Shown: positions 3,362-18,720 of the stretch, in pieces
Layout of the letters: every line of letters starts with the position of its first letter
Numbering within the stretch: the stretch's first letter is position 1
Origin: a virus
Reading direction: 5' to 3' (one strand)
Virus record (IMG/VR): IMGVR_UViG_3300040751_001035
Coordinates: 1 to 21,684 of that record
Length of the DNA stretch: 21,684 nt
Position numbers and translations under genes: made by a program
Notes under the pieces: generated by a model
The model's input: only the letters and a program-made list of their open reading frames with translations
Databases searched by the model: none
What the model was told of the DNA's origin: nothing

Positions 3362-3379
3362 TCCCCTCCCCTTTTTTTT
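3350..3379 (+). terminator. Rho-independent terminator closing the early block
   Basis: GGGGAGG (3350-3356) pairs with CCTCCCC (3365-3371) around an 8-nt loop that contains the TAA stop of the HTH gene. Eight T residues follow (3372-3379). The T-run also provides the TTTG box of the next promoter, so the terminator and promoter are fused. Confidence 0.85.
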
Positions 3380-3408
3380 GTTTATCCGTTTTCTTTTGAT
3401 TACATTAG
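3377..3408 (+). promoter_or_regulatory. Bacteroidota-type promoter for the replication block
   Basis: TTTG (3377-3380) is followed after 20 nt by TACATTAG (3401-3408), matching the Bacteroidota TTTG / TAnnTTTG pattern with one mismatch. The first ATG is only 5 nt downstream (3413), so the transcript would be leaderless or nearly so, or translation would begin mainly at the second gene. It is the only recognisable promoter before the replication block. Confidence 0.6.
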
Positions 3409-3412
3409 ACCT

Positions 3413-3565
3413 ATGAAACATCCAAGAACTCGTTTGACCGAGGTGATGACCATACGCCTCTCACCAGAGGAGCGTCACTTCGTTCGAGAGCAAGCCCGTG
3501 AATATCGGAGCGACGCCGAATTTGTCCGTGAGCTCATCCAATGGTACGAGAAATCAAGGAGCTAA
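3413..3565 (+). CDS. Ribbon-helix-helix-like DNA-binding protein
   Basis: This small gene encodes 50 residues. A short basic start is followed by a beta-strand-like TIRLSPEE and two helices (ERHFVREQAREYR and DAEFVRELIQWYEKSRS). This is the order expected for an Arc/CopG/MobC-type ribbon-helix-helix repressor, which binds operators as a dimer of dimers. Its stop overlaps the ATG of the replication initiator gene by one base (TAATG, 3563-3567), a strong sign of translational coupling. Control of the replication operon or its own promoter 5 nt upstream is the natural inference. Confidence 0.65.
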   Translation: MKHPRTRLTEVMTIRLSPEERHFVREQAREYRSDAEFVRELIQWYEKSRS

Positions 3566-4254
3566 TGTGCATCTACATTCCTGACGAGGTGTGGAACGAC
3601 ACCAGCCTATCCCTATTCGAACGCTGCTTCATGGGTAAGATCATGGCACTGGCCAAGAAGGATGGGGTATGCTGGGCAGGGGACAACCGTCTGGCCGAAT
3701 ACATGACCGTTACCCCTTCGTACATCCGGAAGGCCATCCGAAAATTGAAGGAGACCGGACACCTCACGGTGAAGGGCTACGGACAGTCCCGAAAACTTGT
3801 GCCAAATGGAACAAGTTCCAATAGGAACAAGTTCCAAATGGAACAAAACTTGGGACAGATGGAACATCTAGTTGGGACAATTGGAACAAAAGTTGGGACA
3901 AATGGACCGCATACTATAGAACATACTATAGAGGATACCATAGAACCTACTATAGAGAAGAAGCGAACGAAAAATAAGCCGAAGGATTTGGATGAAGTCT
4001 TGGAAGCATTCAAGGAGGTGGGAGCCGACGAAGCGGAGGGAATGGCTTTCTTTGACTACTACGAAGCCAACGGATGGACACAAGGCAGAAACAAACCTAT
4101 CAAAGACTGGAAGGCCGCCGCGCGTGGCTGGATAAGACGATCACAACAATTCAAACGAAATGAAAAATCTACAAACCGTGGAGTCGCAGATGGCTCTCTC
4201 ATTGAAGCGCATCTCCGAAAGCTCGCCAATGACTCCGGCGAGAGCTTGGGCTGA
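3565..4254 (+). CDS. Winged-helix replication initiation / replisome organizer-like protein
   Basis: This 229-residue protein has an N-terminal winged helix (about residues 15-75: SLSLFERCFMGKIMALAKK, GDNRLAEYMTVTPSYIRKAI, then KLKETGHLTVKG), as in phage and plasmid replication initiators and DnaD-like replisome organizers. Next comes a low-complexity linker of about 50 residues encoded by DNA repeats (TIEHTIEDTIEPTIEK at its end). A helical C-terminal domain follows (EVLEAFKEVGADEAEGMAFF, then NGWTQGRNKPIKDWKAAARGW), typical of these proteins. I use ATG 3565 (TAATG overlap); an in-frame ATG at 3541 would add eight residues. By analogy with lambda O it may bind the repeats inside its own gene and recruit the host helicase. 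That role is inferred. Confidence 0.75.
   Translation: MCIYIPDEVWNDTSLSLFERCFMGKIMALAKKDGVCWAGDNRLAEYMTVTPSYIRKAIRKLKETGHLTVKGYGQSRKLVPNGTSSNRNKFQMEQNLGQMEHLVGTIGTKVGTNGPHTIEHTIEDTIEPTIEKKRTKNKPKDLDEVLEAFKEVGADEAEGMAFFDYYEANGWTQGRNKPIKDWKAAARGWIRRSQQFKRNEKSTNRGVADGSLIEAHLRKLANDSGESLG
3807..3908 (+). repeat. Iteron-like GGAACA direct repeats (candidate origin, left part)
   Basis: Six copies of a TGGAACA-like unit begin at 3807, 3823, 3839, 3860, 3882 and 3903 (the last diverged to TGGACC). Spacings are 16, 16, 21, 22 and 21 nt. The first two are followed by GTTCC, making GGAAC-AA-GTTCC inverted repeats. Three copies of TTGGGACA (3850, 3872, 3893) alternate with the right-hand units. The spacings are not all multiples of three, so the repeats are translated in different frames and the conservation is at DNA level. 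Spacing of about two helical turns suits protein binding on one face. Function as an origin is inferred. Confidence 0.7.
3911..3956 (+). repeat. Four tandem 12-bp AT-rich repeats (candidate unwinding region)
   Basis: ATACTATAGA occurs at 3911 and 3923, ATACCATAGA at 3935 and CTACTATAGA at 3947, an exact 12-bp period giving four TIE-x units in the protein. The unit contains the palindrome CTATAG (except in the third copy) and is more AT-rich than its surroundings. Directly after the GGAACA iterons, it resembles the AT-rich part of iteron-type origins. Because the period is a multiple of three, protein-level repetition cannot be excluded for this part. Confidence 0.65.
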
Positions 4255-4825
4255 AGGCACCAACGTCCTCGCCTCCTTTCGCCTCAACCCAGCCCGCACC
4301 GAGGCCACCCTCCTGATCCTGCTCAAGGACACCCTCAACTACCTTGAGTGTTCCAAGACTATCAAAGCTGACCGCGACCTCCTCGACGCTGTACACTACC
4401 TCCGCGACGAGTTCCCCGCCATGAAGCTCGAGGAGTGGCACATCATTTGCCACCGCCTGAAGACAGGCGAGTACCCCGTCCAGTATGAGCGCCTCAAACT
4501 TCCCGAGCTCGTGGCTATCTTTCGACAGTACGAAGGGGAGCGAGCCGAGGTACGAGAGTCCAATTGGAAGCAACTCAAGAAGGCCACGCCCGACACCCTC
4601 TCCGACGACCAACTCCAAGCACTCTACGCCAAATATGAACAGCAACGACAAGCCAAGAAGGAAGAACTCCAGAAAGCCAAAGCCATCAAAAGCGTCCCCA
4701 CCGACGAGAGGGGGAGGTGGAAAGCGATCCCGTACACCGAACCGCAGCGCGATGGTGAAGAAGGTGGACACGATGTTCTCTCAATTCGTGAGGCTCCGAG
4801 CGACCGACCACCGGGGGATGGGTGA
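4160..4825 (+). CDS. Replication-region protein, unknown function
   Basis: This 221-residue protein is mostly helical. The central segment (DAVHYLRDEFPAMKLEEWHI, then RLKTGEYPVQYERLKLPELV and IFRQYEGERAEVRESN) resembles a Bacteroidota phage family with a conserved helical core found beside replication genes (DUF6633-like, from memory). The C-terminal 60 residues are charged and low in complexity. I use ATG 4160, which has an A-rich leader and overlaps the initiator gene by 95 nt; ATG 4190 or 4229 would reduce the overlap. Its 3' part overlaps the NinG-like gene. Position suggests a helper of replication such as a helicase loader or primosome factor, but no ATPase motif is present. Confidence 0.6.
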   Translation: MKNLQTVESQMALSLKRISESSPMTPARAWAEGTNVLASFRLNPARTEATLLILLKDTLNYLECSKTIKADRDLLDAVHYLRDEFPAMKLEEWHIICHRLKTGEYPVQYERLKLPELVAIFRQYEGERAEVRESNWKQLKKATPDTLSDDQLQALYAKYEQQRQAKKEELQKAKAIKSVPTDERGRWKAIPYTEPQRDGEEGGHDVLSIREAPSDRPPGDG

Positions 4826-5135
4826 GTGCTACACCTGTGGAGCCGTGAGGCACTGGTCGGAAGTTGATGCCGGCCACTTCATGAGCCGGGCTTGCATGAG
4901 CACACGGTGGGACGAGAAGAACGTCCAGTTCCAGTGCAAACGCTGCAACGGCTTCCGGTCGGGAGAGCAGTACCTCTTCGCCCAGCACCTCGACCAAGAA
5001 CACGGGGAGGGGACGGCGGAGGCTCTCCATATAGCCTCGAAGCAAACGCGCAAGTTCACCCACGCCGAACTCGAGCAGATGTACTACCACTACAAGAGAC
5101 TCGTCGATGAGCTCCGAAGCACGAAGGGACTTTGA
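4635..5135 (+). CDS. NinG-like (Rap) recombination / nuclease protein
   Basis: The protein carries the NinG/Rap pattern: CYTCG, then HW, a VDAGHFMSRA segment, N and QCKRCN, with the two CxxC pairs and the central AGH histidine probably binding metal, as in HNH-like structure-specific nucleases. Lambda NinG (Rap) promotes RecBCD/Red-linked recombination by cutting branched DNA. The start is uncertain. ATG 4635 gives 166 residues with a very basic N-terminus (KPRRKNSRKPKPSK), as in related proteins, but overlaps the upstream gene by 191 nt. ATG 4752 gives 127 residues and still holds the whole domain. It overlaps the sigma-like gene by 29 nt. Confidence 0.7.
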   Translation: MNSNDKPRRKNSRKPKPSKASPPTRGGGGKRSRTPNRSAMVKKVDTMFSQFVRLRATDHRGMGECYTCGAVRHWSEVDAGHFMSRACMSTRWDEKNVQFQCKRCNGFRSGEQYLFAQHLDQEHGEGTAEALHIASKQTRKFTHAELEQMYYHYKRLVDELRSTKGL

Positions 5136-5595
5136 CCTCTGGTTCACGGAGCACTACGACGAGCTCCTACGGACAGCGAAAGCCCTCCACCCTGACGCCT
5201 ACGACCTCATCCACGAGACCTACCTCTCCGTCCACCGAGCCCTGCAACGCAACCAAAGGATAGCGGACAACTTCGGAGGATATATTCACACCGCCCTGTG
5301 GAAACTCGCACAAGGGGACTTCCGTAAACTCTACGCCCGAGGCGACGCACCCGAAAAAACTTTGGTTTCCGATTACGACATACGCGAAGCCATACGCAAA
5401 GAGGAGGCACTTATCATGGCCAACCACCTGCGTTGGTTTGATAGAACGGTGCTCGAGTTGTACCTTGAGGGCTGGAGCATGACCGAACTCTCGCGGGAGT
5501 CAGGTATCAACCGCTCCGTCCTATACGAGTCCATCAGTCAGTCCAAGAAAAAGCTACGTCATGTTATTCGTCTCCGCGCAAAAGAGAGCAGATAG
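5107..5595 (+). CDS. Sigma-70-family-like (ECF type) transcription factor
   Basis: This 162-residue protein has the two-domain layout of a minimal ECF-type sigma factor. A region 2-like helical domain covers about residues 10-75 (LWFTEHYDELLRTAKAL, DAYDLIHETYLSVHRAL, FGGYIHTALWKLAQGDFRKL). A region 4-like helix-turn-helix covers about 108-160 (LRWFDRTVLELYLEGWSMTE, then LSRESGINRSVLYESI). Similar sigma-like proteins occur in Bacteroidota phages. It would bind host core RNA polymerase and recognise phage promoters, possibly of the late genes, all of which lie downstream. The region 2 aromatic pattern for promoter melting is not well preserved to my eye, so an anti-host or co-regulatory role remains possible. 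Confidence 0.7.
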   Translation: MSSEARRDFDLWFTEHYDELLRTAKALHPDAYDLIHETYLSVHRALQRNQRIADNFGGYIHTALWKLAQGDFRKLYARGDAPEKTLVSDYDIREAIRKEEALIMANHLRWFDRTVLELYLEGWSMTELSRESGINRSVLYESISQSKKKLRHVIRLRAKESR

Positions 5596-5947: not shown

Positions 5948-6077
5948 ACCGAACCCAGAGGAGAACATGGCGGGGTTCCTCTCCCGCTGCATGGCCGACG
6001 AGACCATGGCCCAAGAATACCCCAACGAAAGACAAAGAATAGCCGTATGCGCAAGACAGTGGAAAGAGAAGGAGTAA
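5934..6077 (+). CDS. Short protein with RQ-x-AVC-x-QW motif
   Basis: This 47-residue protein begins MPIPKPNPEENMAGF and ends with RQRIAVCARQWKEKE. Short sequences of this type (FxxRCMxDxxMxxEYPxxxQRxAVCxxQW) are familiar from phages, either free-standing or as tails on capsid-assembly or portal proteins. No function is established to my knowledge. Both ends overlap neighbours (14 nt upstream, 31 nt downstream), so it is certainly inside the operon. The match to a recurring motif, with both cysteines and the tryptophan in place, makes it a real gene despite its length. Confidence 0.7.
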   Translation: MPIPKPNPEENMAGFLSRCMADETMAQEYPNERQRIAVCARQWKEKE

Positions 6078-6406
6078 GCCAGAACCTCTGGCTCATGGTA
6101 GGGGCTATCGACAGACCCCGCACCTTCGGACGGGAGGCAGCCATCAGGAAGTGCCACCGGGCAGCGGAGAGGTGGGGCTACCAGTGGAGCAAGGTCGTAA
6201 GCAAAGACCGCCACCGCGACGTCGTAGAGGCTCGTCAGATTATGATGAAGCACCTCCGCGATAGCAAGTGGACGTACTCCGAGATAGGTCAGTTCCTCGG
6301 TGGACGCGATCACGCCACCGCCCTCTACGGCTCCCGCCAAGCCGAACACCTCATCGACTACGACAGGTCGTTCCGTGCCAGATACTACGAATTCCAAAAC
6401 GCATGA
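6047..6406 (+). CDS. Stand-alone DnaA domain IV-like DNA-binding protein
   Basis: This 119-residue protein ends with a domain like the C-terminal DNA-binding domain of DnaA (domain IV, Bac_DnaA_C). A helix RDVVEARQIMMKHLR is followed by the helix-turn-helix WTYSEIGQFLGGRDHATALYG. G85-G-R-D-H-A-T91 matches the DnaA signature GGRDHTT, whose residues contact DnaA boxes. The AAA+ ATPase domain of full DnaA is absent; only about 55 N-terminal residues precede the domain. It could bind the phage origin, compete with host DnaA, or act as a regulator. Its start at 6047 overlaps the previous gene, and its stop forms ATGA with the next. Confidence 0.8.
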   Translation: MRKTVEREGVSQNLWLMVGAIDRPRTFGREAAIRKCHRAAERWGYQWSKVVSKDRHRDVVEARQIMMKHLRDSKWTYSEIGQFLGGRDHATALYGSRQAEHLIDYDRSFRARYYEFQNA

Positions 6407-6636
6407 CCCTCCGCAAAGTCAAACGAATGCTCAACGAGTCCGACGACTTCCTCGTGTTCACCATGAAGCACCACGGGGAGACGGCAGACTTCGGAGCCTT
6501 CTACCAACGTACCGAGAGCTGGGAGATACTCCTCAACCTCGCCGTATCAGATTATCACATCCGAGAAACCCTCCGCAATGTCCTCACCGCAGCCGACGCG
6601 TATCGCGACCAACAGACTGAAGACGAGTCCGAGTAA
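6403..6636 (+). CDS. Small protein, unknown function
   Basis: This 77-residue protein starts in an ATGA overlap with the DnaA-like gene and overlaps the ParB-like gene by 59 nt. It looks alpha-helical and acidic (MLNESDDFLVFTMKHHGETA, then WEILLNLAVSDYHIRETLRN). No cysteine pattern, membrane segment or known motif is visible. Tight packing on both sides and the absence of an alternative frame support a real gene. The function is unknown. Confidence 0.6.
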   Translation: MTLRKVKRMLNESDDFLVFTMKHHGETADFGAFYQRTESWEILLNLAVSDYHIRETLRNVLTAADAYRDQQTEDESE

Positions 6637-7015
6637 CCCCCGCGCCATTCGGACGGGTAAGATGGCCGAGCTTTTACGCTCCATCCAAGAAGACCCAGAG
6701 CTCATGCAGGCACGCCCCCTCATCGTGAACCAGCAACTCGAAGTCATCGCAGGGAACCAACGCCTACGAGCCGTCAAGAGGCTAGGATGGAGCCACGTCC
6801 ACGTTATCATGGTTGACTGGCCGGAGGAGAAGCAGAAGAGGGTCATGATAAAAGACAACCTGAACGCAGGGGAGTGGGACTGGGATATGCTCGCCAACGA
6901 ATGGGAAGCCGAAGAACTCCAGAGCTGGGGTCTAGACATCCCCTTCAGCTCGGAACCAGAAGACGAACCCAAAGAACCAAAGCAATGCAAGCACTGCGAC
7001 AAGATGATCCCTTGA
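6578..7015 (+). CDS. ParB-like nuclease domain protein
   Basis: This 145-residue protein carries a ParB/Srx N-terminal-like domain: RIATNRLKTSPSNPR at the start (the usual xxLxxNPR box), RPLIVNQQLEVIAGNQRLRA with the GNxRLxA motif at 59-65, and a conserved KxLGWxxVxVI strand. In other ParB-like proteins this fold binds and hydrolyses CTP or cuts DNA. The following WDWDMLANEW and EELQSWGLDIPF are usual in phage copies. It lacks the ParB HTH and any methyltransferase domain. It ends with a CKHCDK pair (C137, C140) suggesting half of a zinc site. Lying directly before terminase, it may act on DNA processing at packaging, which is inference. Confidence 0.75.
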   Translation: MSSPQPTRIATNRLKTSPSNPRAIRTGKMAELLRSIQEDPELMQARPLIVNQQLEVIAGNQRLRAVKRLGWSHVHVIMVDWPEEKQKRVMIKDNLNAGEWDWDMLANEWEAEELQSWGLDIPFSSEPEDEPKEPKQCKHCDKMIP

Positions 7016-17788: not shown

Positions 17789-18720
17789 GAATCGTAGAAT
17801 TGATAATCGACGAAGACGCGGAGCTGTACGGCATCGACGCTATCTCGCTCGTCGACCGACCAGCCATCGAGCTCGACTTCATCGCCCTGAAAGAACAACG
17901 CCTTGAGTTTGCCGAAGCCGACAAGGAGAAGCGCATCCTCATCGGCCCAGCCCTCGTACCCGACAAGCCTATCTACCGCAAGAACGGGGAGGAGGAGTTC
18001 TACGTCTACTTCTCCAAGGGTACGGTGAGGAAAGCAAGCGAGCTATACCTGAAGCACGGCAACCAAGCCAAGCACACCCTCGAACACGAGCACACCATCC
18101 ACGGGCTCACCGTGGTGGAGTCGTGGATTGTGGAGAACAAGGAGCAGGACAAGTCCGCCCTCTACGACCTCGACGTACCCGTAGGTACTTGGATGGTCGC
18201 CGTCAAGGTGGACAACGAGGCTATCTGGTCGGAGTGGGTTAAGGAGGGCAAGGTCAAGGGCTTCTCCATCGAGGGCTACTTCGTGGACAAGATGAAGAAG
18301 AACACCGAGGACGAGATGCTCGCCGAGCTAGCCAAGGCCATTGTCAAAGCAGACAAGCGGACGAAGACCGGGACGCGGGTAGTGATGGAGTCGTACGACG
18401 ACTACCCCGACGCGGTGAAGAACAACGCCAAGCGAGGCATCGAGCTCAACGAGAAGAACGGGAACAAGTGCGCCACGCAGACGGGCAAGGTCAGGGCTCA
18501 ACAGCTAGCCAACGGCGAGCCCCTTTCCCTCGAGACGGTCAAGCGCATGGCCTCCTACCTACAACGGGCGGAGGAATACTACGACGAGGGCGACATGACA
18601 TCATGTGGTACTATCTCCTATCTCTTGTGGGGTGGCAAGGCTGGCCTCCGGTGGGCTTCGTCCAAGCTGTCGCAGGAGCTCATGAAAGAATTGAAAAAAG
18701 AATTTTCCACAAAAACTTGA
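17785..18720 (+). CDS. XkdF-like prohead maturation protease with C-terminal domain
   Basis: Residues 1 to about 175 of this 311-residue protein match the XkdF-like serine protease family (Peptidase_S78_2). A short N-terminal strand-helix precedes EDAELYGIDAISLVDRPAI. The HEHTIHG box (H101/H103), VVESWIVENKEQDKSALYDL, and GFSIEGYF with S161 form the catalytic region. Such proteases trim the scaffold and capsid proteins during maturation. Residues from about 205 form a separate domain seen in many phage head proteins (YPDAVKNNAKRGIELNEKNG, NKCATQTGKVRAQQLANGE, KRMASYLQRAEEYYDEGD, SYLLWGGKAGLRWA), whose function is unknown. The C-terminus is basic (KELKKEFSTKT). The scaffold gene follows after 41 nt. 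Confidence 0.85.
   Translation: MRIVELIIDEDAELYGIDAISLVDRPAIELDFIALKEQRLEFAEADKEKRILIGPALVPDKPIYRKNGEEEFYVYFSKGTVRKASELYLKHGNQAKHTLEHEHTIHGLTVVESWIVENKEQDKSALYDLDVPVGTWMVAVKVDNEAIWSEWVKEGKVKGFSIEGYFVDKMKKNTEDEMLAELAKAIVKADKRTKTGTRVVMESYDDYPDAVKNNAKRGIELNEKNGNKCATQTGKVRAQQLANGEPLSLETVKRMASYLQRAEEYYDEGDMTSCGTISYLLWGGKAGLRWASSKLSQELMKELKKEFSTKT

Follow-up and report, generated by a model that had tools for sequence, protein, structure and literature searches.

The origins of uncultured phages are rarely located, and the locus analyzed here raises the question of whether a set of repeats lying inside a replication initiator gene marks the place where replication of the phage begins. The DNA concerned, referred to as the window, is the entire IMG/VR record IMGVR_UViG_3300040751_001035 (21,684 nt, classed as linear). 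A reading made from the letters alone (the sequence-only reading) had placed an origin candidate inside this gene, and the dyads that persist among relatives, the constraint on synonymous sites and the unstable A+T-rich side described below support that placement. We consider it very probable that the repeats form an iteron-type theta origin lying within its own initiator gene, in the part that codes for the linker, a candidate that comparison alone places within about 160 bp.

Table 1. Features of the initiator locus, in window coordinates.
Feature	Position	Strand	Description
RHH-like (ribbon-helix-helix-like) gene	3413-3565	+	50 aa; overlaps initiator start (TAATG or TGATG)
Initiator gene	3565-4254	+	winged helix, then origin-bearing linker, then C-terminal domain
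Winged-helix DNA-binding domain	3571-3810	+	residues 1-80 of the modelled protein; AlphaFold2 block with pLDDT 74-92
Iteron 1, TGTGCCAAATGGAACA	3798-3813	+	16-bp dyad
Iteron 2, AGTTCCAATAGGAACA	3814-3829	+	16-bp dyad
Iteron 3, AGTTCCAAATGGAACA	3830-3845	+	16-bp dyad
Iteron 4, TGGGACAGATGGAACA	3851-3866	+	16-bp dyad
Iteron 5, TGGGACAATTGGAACA	3873-3888	+	16-bp dyad
Iteron 6, TGGGACAAATGGACCG, degenerate	3894-3909	+	16-bp dyad
Four 12-bp A+T-rich units, CATACTATAGAA type; proposed unwinding element	3910-3957	+	directly 3' of iteron 6
C-terminal domain (FFDYYEANGW...DWKAAARGWI)	3970-4251	+	phrog_15768/28809
Next gene, helical	4160-4825	+	overlaps initiator; conserved in the family; position of helicase loader (lambda P / SPP1 gp39)
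Exchanged cassette, window (type A) versus L007 (type B)	3373-4040		RHH gene, winged helix, iterons and 12-mers; blastn

The initiator gene probably starts at the ATG that overlaps the upstream stop codon (TAATG). Its product had been described as a winged-helix protein, and it is indeed HTH_36-like, with a winged helix confidently modelled by AlphaFold2, which was run on 24 sequences from the window and the related loci. Against HTH_36 (PF13730), the window protein scores 24.6 bits, with the Pfam gathering cut-off at 25, and several relatives score above that value (L006, 25.8; L007, 26.7; L009, 31.2; L025, 32; L026, 39.5). O-like families are matched at the family level (phrog_391, 4.9e-7; phrog_678, 2.2e-6), phrog_270, replication initiation protein, is matched more strongly (6e-11), with no match to the RepA_N sequence domain (PF06970) at E values up to 1. 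In the PDB, residues 1 to 83 match the plasmid initiators 4pql, 4pt7, 5kbj and 4pta at Z 9.5 to 10.4; general winged helices reach similar scores, and the fold likeness (Z about 10 to 4pql/4pt7/5kbj) does not establish RepA_N membership. Linker residues 81 to 133 (nt 3811 to 3969) have a pLDDT below 50, and the origin-carrying DNA thus coincides exactly with a low-confidence protein segment that, judged from the model, is likely disordered. The C-terminal domain that follows is proposed to be the part that recruits the helicase or replisome.

Within this linker-coding DNA, the repeats form one array of six 16-bp units (3798 to 3909) with the consensus TGTTCCA-AW-TGGAACA. Units 1 to 3 abut one another and are palindromic, with the left half WGTKCCA, while units 4 to 6 follow at steps of 21 to 22 bp and have the left half TGGGACA. 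The sequence-only reading largely matches the repeats found between 3792 and 3957, with some corrections. Of the six GGAACA units that it listed, the spacing of 16, 16, 21, 22 and 21 nt is exact, but the motif occurs in five only, the sixth (3904) reading GGACCG. The TTGGGACA boxes are present at 3850, 3872 and 3893, but what had been taken for a separate family turns out to be the left halves of units 4 to 6. The palindromic left half of units 1 to 3 moves the start of the array from 3807 to 3798. The dyad is confined to this site: at a match of at least 12/16, it occurs five times in the 21.7-kb window, always within the array, and a second iteron site of the kind known from SPP1 was not found elsewhere in the window at 12/16 or better. 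No DnaA boxes lie near the array, the single match in the window, at 18703, being at chance level.

The four tandem 12-bp A+T-rich repeats that had also been reported are present, and they lie in the least stable segment of the DNA: by nearest-neighbour energies, no other 50-bp segment of the record is as unstable as positions 3911 to 3960 (z 4.5), and in 18 of 18 loci tested the 12-mer region holds rank 1 or 2 for lowest 50-bp stability. These units are in frame and encode T-I-E-x, so that the periodicity alone is ambiguous and could be a property of the protein. Codon choice and duplex stability nevertheless show a component at the level of DNA. Rare codons are used for 3 of 4 threonines (ACT, 10% usage), all four isoleucines (ATA, 11%) and both histidines (CAT, 16%), the product of these probabilities being about 1e-8.

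Could the linker simply be a repetitive protein, with the DNA repeats as a by-product of coding? The in-frame 12-mers would fit such an explanation, as would the outcome of the stricter codon test in the window, in which reordering codons within the linker gave p = 0.018; the same procedure gave 0/3000 in L025 and L026. With the protein held fixed and codons sampled according to phage usage, a repeat content as high as that observed (48, against a mean of 5.4) was not attained in any of 3000 draws. The array stretch also ranks first in repeat content among 121 control coding stretches of the window, and repeat content exceeds coding needs in 19 of 19 linkers tested, with L011 as a weak case. 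More directly, the six iterons lie in frames 2, 0, 1, 1, 2 and 2, using all three reading frames and encoding different peptides (of the kinds LVPNGT, SSNRNK and KFQMEQ). In L026, E-to-K changes reverse the encoded charge of the 12-mers (TIE to TKK), but the DNA is still A-rich.

Related loci bear on this point. A protein search and an alignment search yielded 20 and 41 loci, partly on the same contigs, and a scan of IMG/VR by the DNA pattern alone recovered the known relatives as well as L025/L028/L030 and L026. In about 35 relatives, four iteron types occupy the same slot, whereas the C-terminal domain and downstream genes are nearly constant. Type A is the window dyad; the others are type B (CCGTAAAATTTTTACGGGCAG), type C (GCATCCCCAAAATGGGGA) and type D (TCGCCAAAATGRCGA), all three with a 22-bp period, about two helical turns, and successive units therefore step through the three frames. 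As a separate observation, copy number in two of the loci varies only by frame-preserving amounts: L048 (6238 to 6391) exceeds its kin by three B units, and the resulting gain of 66 bp is the smallest to keep the frame at this period, and L055 (262 to 366) has two extra C units, one at a 23-bp step, with the frame kept.

We compared the share of shared codons that differ synonymously. For type A, taking in the window, L003, L004 and L006, the winged helix stands at 40%, against 5% for the iteron linker and 13% for the 12-mers; the corresponding values are 40%, 3% and 4% for type C and 48%, 12% and 2% for type B. Relative to the winged helix, the linker thus shows 8- to 13-fold less synonymous change in two iteron types and 4-fold less in the third. 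As pooled counts are not mutually independent, we also report single pairs: the window and L003 show synonymous differences of 16/63 in the winged helix versus 0/33 in the linker (Fisher p = 0.0009), and L004 and L006 of 23/57 versus 1/32 (p = 0.0001). Replacements are tolerated in the same segment. L025 and L026, whose initiators match that of the window at 33% of winged-helix and 53% of linker residues, keep five to six copies of the window dyad in all three frames, at steps of 16, 21, 22 and 22; the L025 linker encodes LVPSGTCSIQNKRSSKRNKNLFQMEQLDVPNGT, and two of its dyads are perfect (TGTTCCAAATGGAACA). The expectation that iterons would persist while linker amino acids vary is therefore borne out, the claim that repeat groups in different codon frames reflect selection on DNA holds in view of both the frames and the suppressed synonymous change, and the pattern named as contrary, with linker amino acids kept and repeated bases lost, is absent. 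Synonymous sites stay frozen even as amino acids change; together with the spread over reading frames, this refutes a by-product of coding for the iterons, and we regard this explanation of the repeats as a whole as extremely unlikely.

The relatives also link the repeats to the protein that would read them. Among loci that have the C-terminal domain of the window, the winged helix is of four kinds and so is the iteron, and the recognition-helix motif (SRPT for B, SRNT or SKNT for C, APRT for D, and TPSY or SEVQ for A) predicts the iteron type without exception among the nonredundant loci with a readable recognition helix. The winged helices of types B, C and D are 62 to 70% identical to one another. 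Across types, identity breaks between the domains: it is 29% in the winged helix and 79% in the C-terminal domain between the window and L007, 21% and 92% between L003 and L042, and 71%, 30% and 97% in winged helix, linker and C-terminal domain between L011 and L015. The window's C-terminal domain is 68 to 79% identical in L007, L009 and L040 despite their other winged-helix type; conversely, L004, L006 and L019 keep the A module with a different C-terminal domain in place. In blastn, the alignment of the window with L007 ends at 3372 and restarts at 4041. The RHH-like gene occurs only beside type A initiators in the related loci and therefore counts as part of the swapped cassette.

A tree built from three neighbouring genes requires the iteron type to have changed at least 12 times, against a shuffled mean of 14.5, so the distribution of iteron types is not far from random. 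The starred branches alone force fewer switches (7 for B and 4 each for A and C); multiple switches are therefore firm and their exact number is soft. L005 (A) and L045 (B) even have identical neighbouring genes and different iteron types. Judged by these comparisons, the winged helix and its matching site are repeatedly exchanged together among related phages, as one cassette; since both are a single stretch of DNA, one exchange would swap domain and site alike.

Such co-inheritance bears on two further explanations. The dyads might serve as operators for autorepression of the operon by the initiator or the coupled RHH protein, with the origin elsewhere. Repressors are often winged helices or RHH proteins, and the restriction of the RHH gene to type A would suit such a role; however, the array sits some 230 bp into the gene and not at a promoter, the array of every iteron type is followed by some of the least stable DNA, the other types keep arrays without an RHH gene, and the joint swap with the initiator's own recognition helix fits binding by the initiator. 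We therefore regard operators as improbable. A packaging (pac) or recombination function of the array appears very unlikely: although such sites can be intragenic and the gene for the large terminase subunit lies about 3.4 kb downstream, this subunit is 82 to 95% identical across types A to D, whereas the iterons change with the recognition helix.

We propose the following model for an origin at the array. Dimers of the initiator winged helix would bind the six 16-bp dyads and wrap or bend them, thereby straining and opening the adjacent A+T-rich 12-mers. Single strands would become exposed there, and the host DnaB helicase would be brought in by the C-terminal domain together with the flexible linker, perhaps aided by the protein encoded at 4160 to 4825, with replication starting at the array. 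As a candidate helicase loader, the 4160-4825 protein finds no Pfam, PDB or fold support, and its model is of low confidence; no helicase or certain loader was seen among the genes examined in the 21.7-kb fragment. Cumulative GC skew falls steadily to about 15.5 kb with no turning point at the array, but this check is uninformative because the record is a linear fragment, and a second or different origin may lie outside it.

Other genes of the window deserve mention in their own right. Positions 6047 to 6406 encode a stand-alone DnaA domain IV protein (Bac_DnaA_C, E 2e-12, GRDHATALYG motif) with no confident PHROG family, present in 51 of the related loci searched; as the origin has no DnaA boxes nearby, this protein may act on the host oriC or other DnaA sites. 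A small ParB_N-domain protein (6578 to 7015), just upstream of the terminase genes, resembles phage DNA methyltransferase and nuclease families in their N-terminal parts, and a small sigma-70-like protein (5107 to 5595), with region 2 and 4 matches below cut-off, directly follows a NinG-like gene. A host search by prophages in 84,980 genomes gave one weak match, to a Bacteroidales MAG.

The approach suggests a general recipe for locating origins, namely, a search for repeats in excess of codon needs in the linkers of HTH_36-type initiators. The four naturally exchanged specificities are a ready set for studying how winged-helix initiators read DNA, and they bear on why phages swap replication specificity. 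One speculative answer, which we hold only tentatively and think rather doubtful, is that the winged helix and embedded origin are a cassette under diversifying selection in coexisting phages, at least four specificities being shuffled almost randomly relative to the rest of the genome, plausibly as a way of avoiding origin titration, incompatibility, or nucleases and satellites directed at the origin. If so, it would be possible to read a specificity code from the closely related helices of types B, C and D.

Comparable arrangements are known. In ori-lambda, iterons inside gene O (four in lambda, six in Stx phages) are followed by an A+T-rich unwinding tract (PMC7466680; record J02459). The window has the same 5'-to-3' order of mid-gene iterons and A+T-rich tract and another gene directly after the initiator, in the position of P, so the proposed resemblance to lambda with repeats of their own kind stands; the iteron sequences are unrelated, with 16-bp dyads at steps of 16 and 21 to 22 bp in the window, and its next gene has no helicase-loader match by Pfam, PDB or fold. 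Our repeat test flags the iteron stretch of lambda O and, in 5 of 6 other annotated phages whose initiators are related, the linker; embedded origins therefore seem to be common in this class. In Vibrio phage 1.236.O, an annotated relative (DUF4373), the linker repeats are weak (p = 0.025). SPP1 gp38 likewise binds direct repeats in its own gene 38 (oriL), beside an A+T-rich unwinding element (PMC6316719), but SPP1 also possesses oriR as a second origin and a DnaB-type helicase of its own, and the 21.7-kb fragment shows neither.

For the HTH_36 domain and its swap, the closest system is that of the plasmids pSK41 and pPR9. In these plasmids, the N-terminal winged helix of the initiator binds boxes in the middle of its own rep gene; in pSK41 (RepA_N), the linker protein is dispensable, and in pPR9, a pfam13730 N-domain and origin were exchanged on a segment of about 500 bp in a plasmid that still replicates (PMC5703833). 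Both share with the layout proposed for the window an origin within the initiator gene, and pPR9 also the Pfam HTH_36 domain and the exchange of domain plus origin; these are plasmids and not phages, however, and the review describes only one such exchange, found in a few plasmids (PMC5703833), compared with at least 12 switches here. In PLE satellites, the DNA-binding domain of a RepA_N initiator covaries with the iterons of its ori while the C-terminal domain is conserved, modules are swapped repeatedly, and cognate pairing has been tested by experiment (PMC8263062). The covariation, the constant C-terminal domain and the repeated swaps all recur in the phages studied here, but the PLE origin is intergenic, so that protein and site are separate segments. 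The embedded-origin layout is thus known already, and what is new is the number and cleanness of natural exchanges of domain plus origin, which make recognition specificity directly testable.
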